Source of the DNA: Chloroflexota bacterium
GTDB taxonomy: Bacteria; Chloroflexota; Dehalococcoidia; Lucifugimonadales; Lucifugimonadaceae
Direction: 5' to 3'
DNA: 64,000 nucleotides
Assembly (NCBI GenBank): GCA_009838175.1
Contig: VXSB01000003.1
Span: forward strand, 22,163-86,162
The notes beneath the pieces were generated by a model that ran no database searches, was not told the origin of the DNA, and saw only the letters and a program-made list of their open reading frames with translations. The number at the start of each line of letters is the position of its first letter. Positions within the stretch are counted from its first letter, which is position 1. Position numbers and translations under genes: made by a program. Below are positions 7,457 to 20,800 of this stretch, in pieces.

Positions 7457-7494
7457 CACCCTCACCCTAGCCCTCTCCCGTCAAGGGAGAGGGG
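7457..7494. repeat. Dispersed repeat, 'CCCTCTCCC' hairpin type, intergenic copy
   Basis: The segment CACCCTCACCCTAGCCC continues into CCCTCTCCC-gtcaa-GGGAGAGGG, a 9-bp stem with a 5-nt loop. The same sequence type recurs at 16301-16333 and inside the gene at 16.8 kb. It lies between the FAD-subunit gene and the 3' end of the MFS gene. Confidence 0.7.
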
Positions 7495-11528: not shown

Positions 11529-11686
11529 GAACCCCCTGCGTCTCGCTGCGCTTGACGCGTCCCCCTTTTGCTGACGCAAAAAGGGGAGGGCATCCCCCGC
11601 GGAACCCCCTCTGAATCTCCCCCTGAGAGGGGGAGGGAGAAGGATTCGCGTCCTCTTCGTTTCGCGAAAGGGGCGTGCCGATTTGG
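11529..11686. repeat. Composite G/C-rich dispersed repeat, intergenic copy
   Basis: The segment contains, in order: CCCCTGCGTCTCGCTGCGCT; CCCCCTTTTGCTGACGCAAA followed by AAGGGG; GGGCATCCCCCGCGG; the hairpin CTCCCCCTGAGAGGGGGAG; and TTTCGCGAAAGGGGCG. The modules recur singly or together at 8.1-8.2 kb (inside the MFS gene), 16.8 kb (inside the Mrr-like gene), 37.8 kb (inside mutS2) and 63.97 kb. Together with the A3 and ATTCC repeats it fills the 330-bp space between the FAD oxidoreductase and the antitoxin gene; no gene is evident there. Confidence 0.75.
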
Positions 11687-11713
11687 TGTAATCTGTACGA
11701 AGAGCATTGGATC

Positions 11714-11947
11714 ATGCAAAACACGCTGCACATCACCACGAAGGTATTGCCTGGCGGCAAGATCGAGATCGTAAACGAAAAGCTTCCAGTGGGGGAAGCG
11801 GTTGACGTTGTGGTTCGTCACGCCTCAGCCTCAGCGCGCCGCTCCGCAGTCGATATTCTGAACGAAGCACCCGGGCACCGTCTATTCAAGACGGCAGATG
11901 ACGTGAATTCCCTGCTGAAGGATGAACGTGCCTCGTGGGACAGCTGA
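11714..11947 (+). CDS. Probable antitoxin of a VapBC-like pair
   Basis: This 77-residue protein directly precedes and overlaps (13 bp) a PIN-domain toxin gene. The N-terminal part (HITTKVLPGGKIEIVNEKLPVGEAVDVVV) looks like the short beta-rich part of DUF2281/DUF104-type antitoxins. The C-terminus (KTADDVNSLLKDERASWDS) matches the helical tail ending in 'ERxSWD' that is frequent in antitoxins of VapC partners. I chose ATG 11714; the track start at 11675 adds 13 residues from repeat-flanking DNA. It should neutralise the toxin and bind its own promoter, by analogy with the family. Confidence 0.75.
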   Translation: MQNTLHITTKVLPGGKIEIVNEKLPVGEAVDVVVRHASASARRSAVDILNEAPGHRLFKTADDVNSLLKDERASWDS

Positions 11948-12372
11948 TCCTTCCTTCAAGCGGACCTGTCTATCTGGACACCAGCGGGTTCATCTACAGT
12001 GTGGAGCGCATCGAACCATATCACGGGTTGCTTGAGCCGATGTGGCGGCAGGCCCAGTCCGGACAGTTCACCATTGTGAGCAGCGATTTGGTGGTATTGG
12101 AGACCCTGGTCAAGCCTCTGCGTGATGGCGACAGAATCGTCGAGACGCTCTTCAGATCGTTATTCGACGCGATTGAGGTCAACTTGATCCCGGTGACGCG
12201 TGCTCTTTGGGAAGAAGCCGCCATTCTTCGTGCCGAAACTGGATTGAAGACGCCCGATGCAATTCACGCGGCTACAGCTCTGCGCGCCCAGTGCACTCTC
12301 TTTGTCACCAACGATGACGACTTTCGACGCGTTGAAGGCTTGCCAGTCGTTGTCTTGGATGATCTCGGATAA
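11935..12372 (+). CDS. PIN-domain ribonuclease toxin (VapC-like)
   Basis: The 145-residue PIN protein has the expected acidic residues: Asp in VYLDTSGFIYS, Glu in VVLETLVKPL, Asp in LKTPDAIHAATAL and Asp in FVTNDDDFRR. These coordinate the metal in VapC-type RNases, which cleave tRNA or other RNA. Its ATG lies 13 bp inside the antitoxin gene, the usual coupled arrangement. The pair sits between repeat copies A3 and A2, in the most repeat-rich part of the window, consistent with an acquired accessory module. The RNA target is unknown. Confidence 0.88.
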   Translation: MGQLILPSSGPVYLDTSGFIYSVERIEPYHGLLEPMWRQAQSGQFTIVSSDLVVLETLVKPLRDGDRIVETLFRSLFDAIEVNLIPVTRALWEEAAILRAETGLKTPDAIHAATALRAQCTLFVTNDDDFRRVEGLPVVVLDDLG

Positions 12373-12718: not shown

Positions 12719-15700
12719 GTGATGAAATCCCCTACATCACTGATTAGGTTCAGGAACGCGGTGGGCGTGATGCTGGCTATGTCGGCAATCTTCGCCGTCG
12801 TCGTAAGCACCATCTCTATGCCCGGCGACAGGGCGTTCGGGCAGACGGCGACCATGACCAACAGCGCGAAAGTTCAGGGCGCGTTAGATGCGTTGGAAGC
12901 AGCGGCGGCGGATCCTGACTTCAACGACAGCGTTGCCGGCGGCCAAACTTCGGACGGGAAGATCACTCAGTTGCAAGCTGCTGTGGCTGCGATCCCTACC
13001 AATATTGCACCTGACGCGGACAATAACGATGCCGCGGACGTGGACGACGACAATAACCCTCTTCCGAACTTCGCGATCGAAGTTGACAACCCTGGGTATG
13101 ACGCGGACGAGACCGCTGCTGAATATGCGGAAAAGATAAGCGCGAACGCAGCGCTAACTGACGGCGGCGGCAGTGCCGTGACCAACGGACTTAATGAGTA
13201 TCTATCTGACTTGGCCGCCGCGAGGTTAGCCACGGACGGTACCAGTGAGAGTGAAGCGTTGGCGGCGGCGAATACTGCCTTTACCGCGTTGAGGGGAGCC
13301 CTGTGGGACAGCGACACCGTTGCCGACACCGATGCGTTGGCACTATCTGATGCCACCAAGTCAACCTTGGACGGGTTGAACAACGGTTTGCTGACATCAA
13401 CCCCTGATGATCTAGCGGCTTTCAGGACATCAGTGGAAGACGCGCTGAAAAATGACGCGAACTGGTACCCGGAGGACCCTGCCACTGCCCTACCGACAGC
13501 AAATCTGACGGAAGCCGATGGCACTACTACGCTTGTCATTGCGGATCAGCTCAACGCGCTGTTCAATCCCAATACCGCCGATGACGGAACGGATGACACT
13601 GGTGCACTAGTCACCTTGACAGCCGCCCGAACTGCCGAGAGCACCGCGCTAGCTGGCGCGAAGGCAATACTCGAGGCCGTAAAGATGGCCGTTGATGGCG
13701 CTACCTTGCCTGCCGTTGACATGGCGATATACACAGCAGTTTCTCCCAGAACCACTGAGGCGGAGGAAAAAGCGGAAGCCGACATGCAACTGGCCACCGC
13801 TAAGATGCTGCTGATGGAGCTGGTAGGTCGATTGAATGCCAGCAACGCTGAAGAGTTCACCGCGTTCGACGAGCTTGCCGCTCTGAAGACAGCGTTGAGG
13901 GGAGGCATGGGAAGCATCCCATCGATCGGTGTGACGATGAAGAGGCTGGATGCGATAGAGACCGCGTTGCTGAAGAATAACGCGGAAGATCTAGCTGATA
14001 GTAGTGACGGCGCGGGTGACGGCGAGTTGTCTATGTTGAAAGACGACTCTCTAACCCACATCATCACGGCACTCGGCGAACTCTCCGATTTGGATGGAAC
14101 CGGCGCGCAGATGATGGCGATGCGAGACCTTGATGCATTGCTCACCGCGGTGGACAATTCGGTCATGAAGACCATGTTCACGGCGGATACTCCGGCTGGT
14201 GATCTGAGCACTGAGGCGATGGCCGTGAGTGACGCGTTGGCCGCGTTCGCGGCGGTCAAGACCGCTCTATTGGCTAAGCACGTCGACCCTGCAGATGTCG
14301 ATGCCGCCACCATGGCTTTGAACACAATCGCGGATGGCGATGTTGGAGCTGGTCTGAATGGCATTATCGAAGCCGCGGCGCCTCTCTTGAACACCGATCT
14401 GATTCCGGATGCCGAAGCTACGACTGCCTTTGACGAGAGTGCGTTGTTCACGGCATTGAAGTCCAGCATTTTGGCGAGTGCTCTCCCAGAGGAGCCAAGC
14501 GCTACGGATGCCGAAGTTACGGCCGCTGAACTGTCGATGGCGCTGGGGCTTACGCGTACAGAGCCTGATCCGGCGACCCCTGAAGACTCTGCTGACGATA
14601 CGTTGGCAACCAATGACTTCGCCGCGTTCCTGAATAATGTGGCGATGCTCGAAGACATCATCGATACGGTGGACATCACCGAAGGCACCACCGGCATTCA
14701 AGCTTCGACAGCCTTGGATGCTCTTGTCACCGCGTTGGAAGCTACTGTGAACACCAAGTTCAATGCTGCTGATACTGACAGTGGTGACACTGTAGTTCTC
14801 GATAACGCCAACGAAAGAGCTGAAGATTTCAGGAGTAGCACACTTGCTTATAACGACTTCTCAGCGGTGGCGGCATTGCAAGCCGCGTTGGGCGACTTGG
14901 ACGGTGGCGACCTCGACACGAAGGTCAAGACAGCGAGGGATGCGCTGATTGCGGCATACGACAACCGCGACGGACTGAATGCCGACGCCGAAGCTGAGAT
15001 CTCAACCGCGTATCAGGAGCTGATCAGCAAGGGCAGCACCCAGCACGCTTTCGCTCAGAAGGCCGCTCTGCTAGAGCTTAAGTCTGCGCTCGAGACTGCT
15101 GGCGACGACTCCAATGATTTGGAGATGGCGATCCAGAACGCTTTGACGACGCAGTCGCCTGAGCAACAGCAGGCGCAAGCGATGATCTCGCGCATCGAGC
15201 CGGCGATCCGCGGCGCTACGGTGTCCGGCGGTGACAAGGTCACGCTCGAAGTCAAGATCTACGGTCTGCAAAACGTTATGGACCAGAAGCTGGCATACGG
15301 TACGGACGGAGAAGCTGACACTGATGACGACCCGACGTTCGATTGGGGCAGCGCCTCATCCGACACCGGACCATCGATCACCTACACCGCTCCGAATTCG
15401 CCTGGTACGCACACGGTCACAGCATCGCTTGACTCCAACGAGTGCTACCACGCAGACAGCGATGAGCAGATGGAGAAGTGCTCGGCATCGTTCGAGATCC
15501 GAGTGCGCCGTCCGTCGGCTCCGCAACAGCCTGACCCGGCTCCGGTCAACCCGCCTGGTGACATTCCTGAGCTCCTAGCGGATGACGGTGGCAACCAGTA
15601 CGCAGTGTTCACGCCTGAAGAAGGCGGTACGTTCGACGCAGGCGAAGGCTACTCGATCACCGCTGCTGCTGGCGCGGTCCCGAACAACGAGTTCATCGGA

Positions 15701-16201
15701 ATCCGAATGTCGGACGATGGGGCGGCCTCAAACGCCGGCATGACGCACCAGCGCTACACGCTCGGTGGCAACATGTACGGTGTGCACGCGGTCGACAGCT
15801 CTTCGCAGGCAGTCAGCTCGTACGCGCTTGACGACCCGGCCACAGTCTGTGTGCCGCTGCCGGACGAGTTGCGTCAGAACATCTCGGAGTTGGCAGTGGT
15901 GGCGATCAACGGCGATGGTTCGCTGACGATCCTGTCCGCGCAAGTTCGGATAAGCGACGCTGGCACGATGGTATGTGGTGGCTTGAGCAACCTGCCAGCC
16001 TCAGTGGCGGTAGGTAGCGCAGGCGCTCCGGCAGCCATCCCGACGCCGACACCAGAGCCCACGCCAGAGGCGCCCGACACCGGCGGCACTGCCCCGGCAT
16101 CGAGCACGATGGTCCTCTGGGCCCTGCTCCTCGGCATCGCGACGCTTGCCCTAGGCAGCGTGCTGGTAATCGGCCGCCGCCGCGAGAGCGTGCGGAAGTA
16201 G
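12719..16201 (+). CDS. Large secreted, cell-wall/membrane-anchored surface protein (helical stalk)
   Basis: A signal peptide (hydrophobic stretch about residues 13-35, possible cleavage near AFGQ) leads a 1,160-residue protein. Residues ~45-840 are rich in Ala, Asp, Leu and Thr, with many degenerate ALxALEAAL-type helical units, suggesting a long stalk. An Ig-like region (~850-950, TVSGGDKVTLEVKIYG to SFEIRVRR, with a Cys pair) and a second Cys-containing beta-rich domain (~965-1100) follow. A PTPTPEPTPE linker leads to PDTGG, a hydrophobic helix and RRRESVRK, resembling a sortase-type or membrane anchor. GTG 12719 has AAAGGA at good spacing; ATG 12722 is equally possible. It is probably an abundant surface or adhesion protein. 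I recognise the architecture but no named family for the stalk. Confidence 0.8.
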   Translation: MMKSPTSLIRFRNAVGVMLAMSAIFAVVVSTISMPGDRAFGQTATMTNSAKVQGALDALEAAAADPDFNDSVAGGQTSDGKITQLQAAVAAIPTNIAPDADNNDAADVDDDNNPLPNFAIEVDNPGYDADETAAEYAEKISANAALTDGGGSAVTNGLNEYLSDLAAARLATDGTSESEALAAANTAFTALRGALWDSDTVADTDALALSDATKSTLDGLNNGLLTSTPDDLAAFRTSVEDALKNDANWYPEDPATALPTANLTEADGTTTLVIADQLNALFNPNTADDGTDDTGALVTLTAARTAESTALAGAKAILEAVKMAVDGATLPAVDMAIYTAVSPRTTEAEEKAEADMQLATAKMLLMELVGRLNASNAEEFTAFDELAALKTALRGGMGSIPSIGVTMKRLDAIETALLKNNAEDLADSSDGAGDGELSMLKDDSLTHIITALGELSDLDGTGAQMMAMRDLDALLTAVDNSVMKTMFTADTPAGDLSTEAMAVSDALAAFAAVKTALLAKHVDPADVDAATMALNTIADGDVGAGLNGIIEAAAPLLNTDLIPDAEATTAFDESALFTALKSSILASALPEEPSATDAEVTAAELSMALGLTRTEPDPATPEDSADDTLATNDFAAFLNNVAMLEDIIDTVDITEGTTGIQASTALDALVTALEATVNTKFNAADTDSGDTVVLDNANERAEDFRSSTLAYNDFSAVAALQAALGDLDGGDLDTKVKTARDALIAAYDNRDGLNADAEAEISTAYQELISKGSTQHAFAQKAALLELKSALETAGDDSNDLEMAIQNALTTQSPEQQQAQAMISRIEPAIRGATVSGGDKVTLEVKIYGLQNVMDQKLAYGTDGEADTDDDPTFDWGSASSDTGPSITYTAPNSPGTHTVTASLDSNECYHADSDEQMEKCSASFEIRVRRPSAPQQPDPAPVNPPGDIPELLADDGGNQYAVFTPEEGGTFDAGEGYSITAAAGAVPNNEFIGIRMSDDGAASNAGMTHQRYTLGGNMYGVHAVDSSSQAVSSYALDDPATVCVPLPDELRQNISELAVVAINGDGSLTILSAQVRISDAGTMVCGGLSNLPASVAVGSAGAPAAIPTPTPEPTPEAPDTGGTAPASSTMVLWALLLGIATLALGSVLVIGRRRESVRK

Positions 16202-16285: not shown

Positions 16286-16300
16286 GATTCTGTGGGGTAT

Positions 16301-16333
16301 GTCCCCTCTGATGGGACAGGGTTAGGGAGAGGT
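16301..16333. repeat. Dispersed 'CCCTCTCCC' repeat overlapping the 3' end of the Mrr-like gene
   Basis: On the minus strand it reads CCTCTCCCTAACCCTGTCCC then ATCAGAGGGGAC, the same repeat type as at 7457. The stop codon TAA of the gene at 16322 comes from the CCCTAACCC part, so the repeat sets the C-terminus of the protein. Confidence 0.65.
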
Positions 16334-17458
16334 CGTCCCTAAAATCTTCGCTGCGCCTCTTGTTTGGGCGATTTCGGCTAGTTGAGTGCCGTTGATGGTG
16401 GCGATGGGGGTTGCGCCTTGGCGGTTAGCTTCTTCGATGGCGCCGCGTTGGAATTCGCTGGTGGTGATGATCAGTCCGTGATCGCCGATGCGCATGCCGC
16501 CGCGCAGAAGTTGGATGTCGCCACCGTGGACGTCGCGATGCCAGTTGAGGGCTTGGACGGAAAAGTTTATGTCCATCACTTCGGCTATGTCCATGCTGGC
16601 GTGGATGTCGAGTTCGCCGGGCCTCAAACGATTGATGACCACGACGTCGGTCATGCCGATGCTGGCGAGGAATACGACGATGAATCGCTCGAAACGCTGA
16701 TTGGAGAGGGTTCTGATACGCCGGAGCAGGGCCGCGTCGGAGGTGTCGGAGTCATCGCGCTTCCCCCTCGCTTCGCGAAGGAGAGGAGCAGTTTGTTCTT
16801 TCTCTCCCTCGATGGGAGAAGGTCCGGGAGAGGGTGATTGCTGTTGTTCGCCATCCTCGTCGTCATTCGCTTCTACGGTGTCGGTGGATGAACTTTGTGC
16901 AGGGAAGTAGCGAAGGCCGTAGGTGTTGTTTCCGACGCGGACGAAGGTGGATTCGCCGCCGTGCTGAAGCATATCTTGGATGAGCTGGGATCGGACCTCT
17001 GCCTCGTCCTTTGATCTTGTGCCTTTCAACACGCCTGCGGCGCGGAGCATCGTCGTCATCTCGTCGATGCTCAGCGGACGTCTCGCGCGACTCAGCACTT
17101 CTTTGGTGGCGTCTTCTAGCGTCCACATCGCGCCGACATTCGAACGCGCGATGGCAGATGCAATGCTGATCGGGTTGATCGTTGATGCCGTCGTAGTCGC
17201 GATCTCGGTGCCGGTCCGCAACGTTCGATCGAGCATGGACGGTAGCGTGAACCTACCTGATGGTGTTTGCACGATGCCTGAGGTCTCGGTAGCTTCCTCT
17301 ACGACGTGCTCGAGTTCTACTTTTACGGATTCATCGTCGAGCGGCTCGTTGGCATCGATGGGGATGCGTGCGGATTTGATCTGACGCACGATCTCCGCTG
17401 GCGACAACGGCTCGCCAGCACGTCTCAAAACGTCAAATGCGGCTTCGATCAACCGCAT
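16322..17458 (-). CDS. HARE-HTH / Mrr-like restriction-endonuclease-fold protein, likely inactive nuclease
   Basis: The 378-residue protein appears to have two winged-helix modules of the HARE-HTH/Mrr-N type (about 1-70 and 100-180; e.g. AAFDVLRRAGEPLSPAEIV and ATKEVLSRARRPLSIDEM), then a C-terminal Mrr-like domain (from about 245). FERFIVVFLASIGMTDV, GELDIHA, and GLIITTSEFQRGAIEEAN match the Mrr_cat pattern. Where active enzymes have Q-x-K, this protein reads VQALNW, so the catalytic Lys appears replaced by Leu. Between the parts, SPSPGPSPIEGEKEQ and LREARGKRDD are encoded by a dispersed repeat in frame, and the stop codon also lies in a repeat. It may bind modified DNA without cutting. It lies 16 bp downstream of the amidohydrolase gene. 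Confidence 0.7.
   Translation of the reverse strand: MRLIEAAFDVLRRAGEPLSPAEIVRQIKSARIPIDANEPLDDESVKVELEHVVEEATETSGIVQTPSGRFTLPSMLDRTLRTGTEIATTTASTINPISIASAIARSNVGAMWTLEDATKEVLSRARRPLSIDEMTTMLRAAGVLKGTRSKDEAEVRSQLIQDMLQHGGESTFVRVGNNTYGLRYFPAQSSSTDTVEANDDEDGEQQQSPSPGPSPIEGEKEQTAPLLREARGKRDDSDTSDAALLRRIRTLSNQRFERFIVVFLASIGMTDVVVINRLRPGELDIHASMDIAEVMDINFSVQALNWHRDVHGGDIQLLRGGMRIGDHGLIITTSEFQRGAIEEANRQGATPIATINGTQLAEIAQTRGAAKILGTTSP
16761..16838 (-). repeat. In-frame composite repeat inside the Mrr-like gene
   Basis: CCCCCTCGCTTCGCGAAGG and the hairpin TCTCCC-tcgat-GGGAGA followed by GGTCCGGGAGAGGGTGA belong to the same repeat types as those at 7.46, 11.6 and 37.8 kb. The frame of the gene remains open through it. 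It falls in the linker between the winged-helix part and the nuclease-like domain. Confidence 0.7.
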
Positions 17459-17474
17459 CGATCAACCTCCAAAC

Positions 17475-19064
17475 TTATACGGCTTCTCCTGCCAACACTC
17501 CGGTCAACCTCTCGTGGTCCACAGCGACCTGCCCGTTTACGACGACGAACGGGATTCCTTCGGGGAACTGTTCAGGATCTTCAAAGGTGGCACGGTCTGT
17601 AATACGTTCGGAGTCGAACACTACGATGTCTGCGAACTTGCCTTTTGCGATCTCGCCTCGATCTTTGAGTCCGAAGCGCAGAGCGGCGTTCTGGGACAGG
17701 CGCTGGACCATCAACTCTAGCGGGATCTTGTGACGCCGTCGGAGTCGGCCGATCATACGCGGGAAGCAGCCGTAGGCGCGAGGGTGGACCATGCCGCCGG
17801 TAGGAATGGCATCGGAGCCGACCATGTAGTCTGAGCGCTGCATAAGTTCCATGATGTCGGCCTCGACCTGCTGCCAGACTCGGGTGCTTGCAGGAGGTGC
17901 GCCGCGGAAGCCGCAGTTGAGGTCCTCTTCGAGCATGACTCGGCACATCATCTCTTCGACGGATACGTTCCATTCCGCCGCCACGTCGTCGAAGTACATG
18001 CCCTCCAGATGCTTGTTCGCCTCCGAGCCGATGTGCGACCATACATTTCCTCCAGCGGCACTTCCGCGTGAACCGCTGACGATGCCATCTATGACCCGCT
18101 CACGGCTCTCACCATCTGCGAGCAGTTTGAGCATCGATTCAGGGCCACCTTCGTGGAACCAGCTCGGGAAGAAGGACTGCGGGAAGCTGGAGCCGACCGG
18201 ATAGGGATAGGTCTCTAACGTGACATCCACACCATCCGACTTGGCGCGTTCGACCGGTTCGAGAATCGATTCGAGGTCGCCTGCAGAGTCGGGCTGCGTT
18301 CGGTAGTGCTCAAGGTGGATCTGGGCGCCAGAGCGGCGACCTATCTCCATCGCCTCTTCGACACCACCACCTGCGAAACCGCGATCGGTGTTGTGGTTTC
18401 GGAGGTGAATGGACAGCGGAAGTTCGTACTCCTTAACGACGTTCATGATGTTGACAAGTTCGTCGGTGTCGGAAAAGGAGTTGGGGTAGTAGGAGAGGCC
18501 GGTGGAAAAGCCGCACGCGCCCTGCTCGAAGCTCTCGCGGATTATGCGCTCGGCGCGTTTCCAGTTATCTCCAGTCAAGGGCTCGTCGATCATGCCGCCG
18601 ACTGCTTCTAGGCGTACGGGGCCGTGACCGAGGAACATGGCGACGTTGCACGATGTCTTGTTGTGGTAGTTCGACATCGCAGTGGCGTACGTCGACATGT
18701 CCAGCTCTTCGGACGCATAGCCCAAGACGCCGCTCAGGTAGTGCATGTACATGAGGTAGTTCTCGCGTGAGAGCGGAGCTAGCGTGAGGCCGTCTGGAGC
18801 GATGATCTCGGTGGTAACACCCTGTCGGATGCCGCAGGCGTGTTGCCCATCTCGAAGCAACGCGGCATCGGCGTGGGAGTGCACATCGATGAAGCCGGGG
18901 GTCACGGCAAGACCGTTGGCGTCGATGACGCGTGTGGCGTTTGCGGCTGAGAGATCGCCGATAGCTGAGACGCGCTTGCCGTCGATTCCGACATCGGCTC
19001 TGATGCCGGGCGCGCCGGTGCCGTCGTAAACAGTGCCGTTGATGATTAACAGGTCGAATTGCAT
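17475..19064 (-). CDS. N-acyl-D-amino-acid deacylase-family amidohydrolase
   Basis: This 529-residue member of the amidohydrolase superfamily starts with the small beta domain (LLIINGTVYDGTG) and has VTPGFIDVHSHAD near residue 60, the HxH metal motif of the TIM barrel. HLEHYRTQP near residue 254 holds further ligand histidines, and the C-terminal RGEIAKGKFADIVVFD closes the beta domain. Its spread matches D-aminoacylase/N-acyl-D-glutamate deacylase proteins, which release free D-amino acids from N-acyl forms. No signal peptide is visible, so it is cytoplasmic. It is followed by the Mrr-like gene on the same strand. Substrate specificity is not determined by sequence alone. Confidence 0.88.
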   Translation of the reverse strand: MQFDLLIINGTVYDGTGAPGIRADVGIDGKRVSAIGDLSAANATRVIDANGLAVTPGFIDVHSHADAALLRDGQHACGIRQGVTTEIIAPDGLTLAPLSRENYLMYMHYLSGVLGYASEELDMSTYATAMSNYHNKTSCNVAMFLGHGPVRLEAVGGMIDEPLTGDNWKRAERIIRESFEQGACGFSTGLSYYPNSFSDTDELVNIMNVVKEYELPLSIHLRNHNTDRGFAGGGVEEAMEIGRRSGAQIHLEHYRTQPDSAGDLESILEPVERAKSDGVDVTLETYPYPVGSSFPQSFFPSWFHEGGPESMLKLLADGESRERVIDGIVSGSRGSAAGGNVWSHIGSEANKHLEGMYFDDVAAEWNVSVEEMMCRVMLEEDLNCGFRGAPPASTRVWQQVEADIMELMQRSDYMVGSDAIPTGGMVHPRAYGCFPRMIGRLRRRHKIPLELMVQRLSQNAALRFGLKDRGEIAKGKFADIVVFDSERITDRATFEDPEQFPEGIPFVVVNGQVAVDHERLTGVLAGEAV

Positions 19065-19134: not shown

Positions 19135-20724
19135 TCACTCTTTCGCGTAGTGGTCGCGCTTCAAGAAGGTGTTAGCCCAGGATGCGGTGCCTTTGAGTGA
19201 GGCGTCGGTGAAGGTTACAGGGTGGTTGAGCATATCTTCTTCTTCGCCGTAGAGTTTGAGGGTGTTGTAGGCGCGGAGGTAGATGCAGTCTTTGTCGAGG
19301 ATTTCGCACTTGCCGGCTCGAGTGCCGCCGCAGGGTCCGTTGCGCTGGTTCTTGACGCACTGGGACTCCGGGCAGAGTTCGGCGATTTCGGGGAGCGAGC
19401 AGTCGCCGCAGTCTCGGCAGCCGTATAGCGGCACCTTCATCATCTGCTCGGCGGCGTGGGCGACTTTGGTTGCGATTTTGCTCTTATCGATCTGGCGGTA
19501 GATAGCCGCGCTGGCGTTGAAAGCAGGAGCGTCGTGATCGAATATCGCGTGTTTTCCGAAGCGGCCGATGCGATACGCGAAGTCAGGGTGAAGAGCGCGC
19601 CTGACAAACGACGCGGGACGACCTCGGCGGGCATCATATTCGCGGTTCAATTCGTCAGAAGCAGTGTTGGTGCTGTCGCCAGGTTCGAAGAGGTAGAACT
19701 CGTCGGGTTGAGAGTAGCCGATCTCGGCGGCGGCATCTTTCCAGCCGTCGCCGGTGATGCTTTCGGCGATGTCGAGTATCTGCTCGATACGTTTGTATGT
19801 GAGCCTGCCGGAGAGATAGACGCCGCTGTAGCCGGTTCCTCGCAGGACGGCGATCTGCTTGGCCGCGAATTCGTTGAAGAATGCACGTCCGCGGTCTTTT
19901 GATTTGGCGGCGCGGTTCGCCACCTCGACAAGTTCGGAGTTGACGGCGACACCGGGGATGCCCCACCGACCAAAGAATCGTGCAGCAGGTGCGCTCAGGA
20001 CAAAGATCGAGCCGAGGATCGGCGGTGCTTCCTCGCCGTGTTTGAGGTTGAGGTATCGGATTAGCTCGTGATGTTTTCGGGCATCGTACCCGATCTGAGA
20101 TACGAGCCACTTGGCGCCAGTTCGGAGCTTGAAATCCATCTTGTAGAGCTGCGTCAGATACTCGCCCTCATAGAGCTTGAAGGGGTTGACTGCGGCTCCG
20201 GGATGGAATGCAGTGTGTCCGAGTTCAGTTTCGGCGTTGCGCCGTCCTGGAAGCGTTACACGCAACCCTTCGTTCATGCGACGTATCAGCTCCAGCAGAC
20301 CTACAGAGTCGGTGTCGAAAACGGGTTGAGCCTGCCCCGAGAAACCGTCTACCGGGTAATCGCCGGAGAGACAGAGGATGTTGCGGAATCCGAGGCTGGA
20401 CAGAGACCACAATCGTCCTTCGAGAGCATTGCGATTGTAATCCTTACAAGAGAGGTTGATTACGACCTCGGCATCGCCATCCAGCAGTTCGCGGCCCAGC
20501 GTTTCGGGAGTGATGTGCGGATTACCGCCGGGGTTGTCGGTGAAACAGACGGCGTCGACTCTTCCGCCCTGTGATGCTGCTTTGGCGAGGTCTACGGAGT
20601 GTCGAGCGCCTTCTTCCATGGCGAGGCCGCGCGAGGTTTCGATCTCGATCGCGACCTTGAAACCGTCGGATAGGCGTGCGATTATGCCGGATTGACGGAC
20701 GAGAGAATCTTCATCGGAGGGCAT
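19135..20724 (-). CDS. metF: Methylenetetrahydrofolate reductase with MTHFR C-terminal Cys-rich domain
   Basis: Residues ~20-330 form the FAD-binding TIM barrel of MTHFR: VAIEIETSRG contains the catalytic Glu, and CLSGDYPVDGFSG and ELGHTAFHPGAAVNPF bind folate and flavin. The C-terminal ~100 residues have the MTHFR_C pattern: YGCRDCGDCSLPE, CPESQCVKNQRNGPCGG and CEILDKDC. This Cys-rich domain is common in anaerobe-type and Chloroflexota MTHFRs and may interact with an electron-transfer partner. The enzyme reduces methylene-THF to methyl-THF for methionine synthesis or C1 metabolism. The track uses TTG 20733; ATG 20724 is more likely. The start abuts the divergent pgpA region. Confidence 0.9.
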   Translation of the reverse strand: MPSDEDSLVRQSGIIARLSDGFKVAIEIETSRGLAMEEGARHSVDLAKAASQGGRVDAVCFTDNPGGNPHITPETLGRELLDGDAEVVINLSCKDYNRNALEGRLWSLSSLGFRNILCLSGDYPVDGFSGQAQPVFDTDSVGLLELIRRMNEGLRVTLPGRRNAETELGHTAFHPGAAVNPFKLYEGEYLTQLYKMDFKLRTGAKWLVSQIGYDARKHHELIRYLNLKHGEEAPPILGSIFVLSAPAARFFGRWGIPGVAVNSELVEVANRAAKSKDRGRAFFNEFAAKQIAVLRGTGYSGVYLSGRLTYKRIEQILDIAESITGDGWKDAAAEIGYSQPDEFYLFEPGDSTNTASDELNREYDARRGRPASFVRRALHPDFAYRIGRFGKHAIFDHDAPAFNASAAIYRQIDKSKIATKVAHAAEQMMKVPLYGCRDCGDCSLPEIAELCPESQCVKNQRNGPCGGTRAGKCEILDKDCIYLRAYNTLKLYGEEEDMLNHPVTFTDASLKGTASWANTFLKRDHYAKE

Positions 20725-20800
20725 GAAGTTCAATTATCGCGTGGATAGACGGCAACATAAGATTGAGTTGCTCAGTTCGAAGATCTGGCTGTGGTGGTTC

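Follow-up and report, generated by a model that had tools for sequence, protein, structure and literature searches.

The gene at positions 16322-17458 of the window, the whole stretch of 64,000 nucleotides analysed here, raises the question of what use a bacterium may have for an Mrr-type protein that appears to have lost its capacity to cut DNA and that lies among metabolic genes. The host genus belongs to the SAR202-type Dehalococcoidia, three copies of the gene being found in MAG records labelled SAR202 or Dehalococcoidia.

Domain architecture

The coordinates, the strand and the length of 378 residues of this open reading frame all check out, and an RBS-like GGAGG is located 5' of its ATG, at 17466-17470. 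The tandem winged-helix modules and the Mrr domain described in an earlier note on this DNA were recovered with Pfam. HARE-HTH (PF05066, E 5.7e-17) matches two stretches, the best at residues 112-183, and Mrr_cat (PF04471, E 1.2e-13) matches residues 248-363 with 51.6 bits against a cut-off of 21. The features of the protein are as follows.

16322-17458, minus strand: coding sequence, 378 residues, comprising HARE-HTH, HARE-HTH, a linker and an Mrr_cat domain dead by motif (Pfam; RBS-like GGAGG)
17237-17452, minus strand: first HARE-HTH, degenerate, residues 3-74 (second Pfam stretch; AF2 helices)
16910-17125, minus strand: second HARE-HTH, residues 112-183 (Pfam; likeness to the first HARE-HTH of relative L080; low dN/dS)
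16758-16838, no strand assigned: linker stretch from a dispersed palindromic repeat of the CCCTCTCCC...GGGAGAGG family, read in frame (exact core copies; unlike the orthologues)
16349-16729, minus strand: Mrr_cat-like domain, residues 244-370, lysine-free (Pfam, AF2, Foldseek; lysine count 0)

The first HARE-HTH is weak by sequence (23.5 bits, under the cut-off); its AF2 helices at residues 3-14, 20-29 and 42-55 nevertheless follow the helix-helix-helix-wing order of the intact relative. The second shares 35% identity (E 4e-15) with the first HARE-HTH of L080. A C-terminal beta-hairpin present in the relatives is absent from this protein, and the GKTPEAT signature common to the HARE modules of the active cousins is eroded in the copies of the genus. 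Because of this erosion, the protein may have lost even the specificity of its ancestor, and its binding to DNA is itself uncertain.

Loss of the catalytic lysine

The active site was located by alignment with the HARE-HTH-Mrr family, MspJI and AspBHI.

16688-16690, minus strand: codon of Glu257, the conserved Glu of the first helix, kept (family alignment)
16607-16609, minus strand: codon of Asp284, the catalytic Asp, kept; the GDGG loop before it now reads RPGE (family alignment)
16553-16555, minus strand: codon of Gln302, the Q of QxK, kept (family alignment)
16547-16549, minus strand: codon of Leu304, at the position expected for the catalytic Lys (family and MspJI/AspBHI alignment)

The earlier note had reported a retained Asp motif (GELD) together with VQALNW in place of QxK, and both observations hold. 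Asp284 is conserved inside RPGELD, where the family reads GDGG[IV]D. Leu304 aligns with the K of QAK or QVK in the family and, in a profile alignment limited to the Mrr part, occupies the column of QAK in MspJI (D334/Q355/K357, a numbering counted from the printed alignment) and of EAK in AspBHI. The next family residue, an Arg, is replaced as well (K304L, R305N), and the Trp at position 306 is retained. Every copy of the genus thus displays the site pattern EDQLN against EDQK[RK] in the family, and the lysine is kept in 66 of the 74 other Mrr domains examined. Since QALNW is identical in the five copies of the genus, coming from five genomes, its origin by chance or by an assembly error was rejected. 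Judged by its motifs, the Mrr domain is nuclease-dead, as the note had proposed, and the intact nuclease that characterizes type IV or modification-dependent restriction systems is lacking.

Distribution and origin

The dead HARE-HTH-Mrr protein was detected only in its own genus after a search of 60 near relatives, of 393 genomes from its class and of 400 from its phylum. Relatives of the same architecture with an intact lysine are scattered across the phylum and are also found on viral or mobile contigs. These nucleases (L080-L087, L018, L016 and L108-L113) have the domain order, the Mrr fold and the Glu, Asp and Gln in common with the window protein, to which they are about 26-30% identical overall; they differ from it by the presence of QxK, the GDGG loop, the C-terminal beta-hairpin and GKTPEAT, and those sampled reside in defence loci.

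In a tree of 78 Mrr domains, the copies of the genus group together in one clade with 100/100 support, and the stem leading to it measures 1.63 changes per site; the sister group of this clade, with moderate support (82/75), is the intact HARE-HTH-Mrr family. This topology indicates a single origin of the lysine-less copies in the genus, and the contrast between the long stem and the short changes within the clade points to one episode of fast change followed by a much slower one. Spread by plasmids was considered and rejected, with just one weak Mrr match.

Genomic setting

Two genes precede the coding sequence on the same strand.

17475-19064, minus strand: D-aminoacylase-type amidohydrolase (Amidohydro_3), upstream gene, separated by 16 nt from the start codon (gene order shared with G003, G004 and G006)
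19135-20733, minus strand: MTHFR-like protein with an MTHFR C-terminal domain, next upstream (context)

Wherever the copy is intact, in the four genomes G000, G003, G004 and G006, the gene lies directly behind the amidohydrolase, with the MTHFR-like gene further upstream; in G003, G004 and G006 its RBS abuts or overlaps the stop codon of the amidohydrolase. A scan of the locus for promoters and terminators remained at chance level; from spacing alone, the gene is probably in an operon with the D-aminoacylase-type gene. The neighbours are metabolic, in agreement with the earlier note, and the neighbourhood conserved across the four genomes contains no defence gene; a setting among defence genes is typical of type IV restriction without strictly defining it. 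On the opposite strand, the window also encodes a convergent neighbour (12719-16201, plus strand), a secreted Ala/Asp-rich surface-like protein of 1160 residues with an anchor-like C-terminal tail and no Pfam match, and, at 11675-12372 (plus strand), overlapping genes for a small protein and a PIN-domain protein resembling a VapBC toxin-antitoxin pair.

The surroundings of the intact cousins are quite different. The six loci inspected contain type I R-M genes, namely hsdS/hsdR (L102), an hsdR-like gene (L080) or hsdM/hsdS (L086), the BREX gene BrxL (L081), or Dam-type D12 N6-adenine methylases (L103 and L105). On this basis the window protein might be viewed as a modification sensor for defence, in which the HARE modules would bind foreign DNA that carries modifications, while the dead domain would recruit or license another effector, or shield sites. 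HARE-HTH modules have indeed been proposed as readers of base modification, on adenine or, with greater likelihood, on cytosine (PMC11037411; see also PMC10853773), and inactive REase domains have been proposed as sensors in BREX (PMC12839542). Such reading of modified DNA by the window protein, which the earlier note had suggested, would be possible by analogy with the active relatives and with this proposed role. A match to the PADLOC candidate defence system PDC-S02 points in the same direction; it is partial, aligning residues 237-364 with 171-300 of 324, and covers the Mrr part only. Each of the four genomes that retain an intact gene encodes methylases of the 5mC type (PF00145); these are missing from G002 and G005, yet they also occur in G001, from which the gene was lost, and this correlation over seven genomes is suggestive but not significant; N6/N4 methylases are present in 7/7 genomes of the genus, which makes that census uninformative. 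The absence of a defence gene from the conserved neighbourhood and the eroded HARE signature argue against such a sensor. So does the own genome, whose assembly is 91% complete and in which no second Mrr homologue was found that could act as the cutting partner. A role in defence is consequently regarded as unlikely, even if it survives better than the other alternatives.

Selection and gene loss

A slightly less probable alternative is that of a relic in slow decay, in which the protein no longer cuts and its gene is gradually disappearing from the genus. Among the seven genomes, three have in fact broken or lost it. The copy of G002 is a pseudogene, with residues about 13-128 deleted, stops and a repeat insertion; that of G001 is reduced to a remnant of 20 nt from the 3' end; and in G005 the gene is absent, the amidohydrolase being directly followed by other sequence (by eye, a convergent gamma-glutamyltransferase-like gene). 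These losses show that the gene is dispensable, and the repeat inserted in the linker of the window copy would also fit a decaying gene.

The substitution rates in the four full-length lineages speak against this view. The dN/dS ratio is 0.09-0.13 over the full length, about 0.04-0.08 in the dead Mrr domain and 0.04-0.05 in the second HARE-HTH where dS is finite, the linker being unconstrained; these ratios are approximate, as dS is saturated in most pairs (most >1). For the Mrr domain, the cleanest pair, G003-G004, yields a dN of 0.007 and a dS of 0.148, compared with 0.100 and 1.58 for G003-G006 and 0.174 and 2.12 for G000-G006. The Mrr remnant of G002 has a ratio of 0.115 relative to the window copy (dN 0.045, dS 0.395). 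In addition, 24 family positions and many clade-specific positions are fixed in the copies of the genus. The dead Mrr domain has accordingly, on the evidence of these codon comparisons, been under strong purifying selection since the loss of the lysine and is not decaying; a pure pseudogene was rejected on the basis of dN/dS.

A probable maintained pseudo-nuclease

The reading that best accommodates these data, to which a probability of roughly 0.6 is given, is that of a pseudo-nuclease maintained by selection, which would bind DNA and descend from a HARE-HTH-HARE-HTH-Mrr restriction nuclease of the type that occurs in R-M and BREX loci. The sequences themselves document its foundations, namely the architecture, the loss of the lysine with no substitute inside the domain, the single origin, the constraint and the conserved neighbourhood. 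In the ancestor of the genus, the replacement of the PD-QxK lysine by Leu and the remodelling of the loop around the Asp would have ended cleavage, and strong purifying selection would have followed behind the D-aminoacylase-type gene, probably in its operon. The loss of the cutting residue while the rest is kept intact in several related species, beside a metabolic gene, suggests that the protein probably only binds DNA. The HARE-HTH modules would provide this binding, whereas the dead Mrr fold may serve for dimerisation and as a clamp on the DNA backbone, in which the conserved E, D and Q may have retained contacts with metal or DNA. Because the gene lies in an operon-like arrangement and no partner nuclease was found in its genome, a regulator of local transcription or chromatin, in the simplest case acting on its own operon, is favoured over a defence effector. 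A more specific version, in which host DNA methylation, or its absence, would be sensed through HARE-HTH and the dead Mrr clamp would switch the D-aminoacylase/folate operon, is a rather speculative proposal.

The evidence supports the view that this derivative of a defence nuclease has left its defence setting. E. coli Mrr (PD-QxK, PMC12707154) likewise combines a wH-type binding domain with Mrr_cat, but its catalytic site is intact and it is a restriction enzyme that cuts. A closer parallel in principle is provided by RecC (PMC1185551) and by the inactive REases of BREX helicases (PMC12839542), in which the fold is kept, the catalytic residues are lost and new, non-cutting roles were gained, albeit in another architecture and complex; unlike them, the window protein retains three of the four site residues. 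The principle is therefore ordinary and the novelty is that of the case, a clean one in which the cutting residue of a defence nuclease disappeared in a single event, the fold was preserved by selection and the gene passed from defence loci into a metabolic operon. The protein also offers a natural lysine-free reader scaffold for probing what HARE-HTH modules bind.

Predicted structure and residual alternatives

An AF2 model of the window protein was built from an alignment of 12 rows. In its Mrr part (pLDDT about 90), D284 is placed on strand 282-291 and L304 ends strand 295-304; the elements follow one another in the same way in the model of L080, the intact control, where Asp D239 and Lys K259 occupy the equivalent places. 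The best Foldseek match in the PDB is MspJI (E 2.8e-5), which is also the best match of the L080 model. A sequence search of the PDB with a full-length profile returned no matches, and a profile limited to the Mrr part recovered AspBHI and MspJI. In the alignment behind this profile, about ten residues at the start of row 6 are erroneous, all of them outside the conserved columns. These two modification-dependent enzymes, the closest solved folds to the catalytic part, differ from the window protein by an SRA sensor in place of HARE-HTH and by the presence of the catalytic lysine. The models thus predict that the Mrr fold is retained despite the loss of this residue.

A few restriction enzymes, such as BamHI and BglII, have Glu or Gln instead of the lysine. 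With this precedent, the retention of Glu257, Asp284 and Gln302 could suggest that the enzyme still cuts through a rebuilt site, in which the invariant Arg308, or Asn305, or a folded-back Lys371 would replace the missing residue; Arg308, Asp309 and Lys371 are all fixed in the clade. The search for a substitute by alignment and structure prediction, which the earlier note had called for, produced no candidate within the domain itself. Residues 244-370 are devoid of lysine in every copy of the genus, so that an alternative lysine supplied from within the domain was rejected. Lys371, the nearest one, is just past the domain, beyond its last helix and 67 residues from Leu304. Leu is inert at this position and the GDGG loop is lost too. 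A rebuilt site is accordingly considered very improbable. Equally little credit is given to an RNA-polymerase-associated factor, in which HARE-HTH would function like that of the delta subunit (RpoE) and the dead PD-(D/E)XK fold like that of RPB5. The Foldseek matches to the RpoE-RpoC model 9a6y (prob 0.95) and to chains of RPB5, for instance 4c2m_E (prob 0.94), are not significant (E 0.1-0.2); the RPB5 matches are no weaker for the model of the intact nuclease and hence reflect nothing more than the shared fold.

Dispersed repeat and other homologues

The linker stretch 16758-16838 differs from the orthologues by the in-frame insertion of the repeat. Its core, CCCTCTCCC...GGGAGAGG, has 93 exact copies in the own genome, where a control pattern has 0, and 10-82 copies in six relatives, with a control of about 0. 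The repeat is also present at 7471-7492 of the window, other repeats occupy the same linker in G002, and repeat-like sequence at about 16300-16340 seems to supply the last residues of the protein and its stop codon.

Dead or unusual homologues were encountered elsewhere. Six genomes of one family (L034, L037, L032, L024, L027 and L038) carry a conserved pair made of an active Mrr gene and, directly after it, a dead-site Mrr homologue (E-E-[IV]-R-R), the frame of which opens with a transmembrane-like stretch in at least two of them. Within the genus of the window, L013 (G003:C20:162657-163058) is an Mrr homologue of different architecture with a degraded site, GDGGIT...QFQRP. A HARE-HTH-Mrr protein of a viral contig (L083:3425-4483) combines QAERW with GDGGTD, an independent and recent change of the site, beside the near-identical intact copies L082 and L087. 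Finally, L136:3205-3666 (G005) and L137:6678-7163 (G004) are stand-alone proteins in which an N-terminal stretch resembling a coiled coil is combined with a HARE-HTH at the C-terminus; their genes lie at a distance of about 3 kb from a gene for an N6/N4 methylase.
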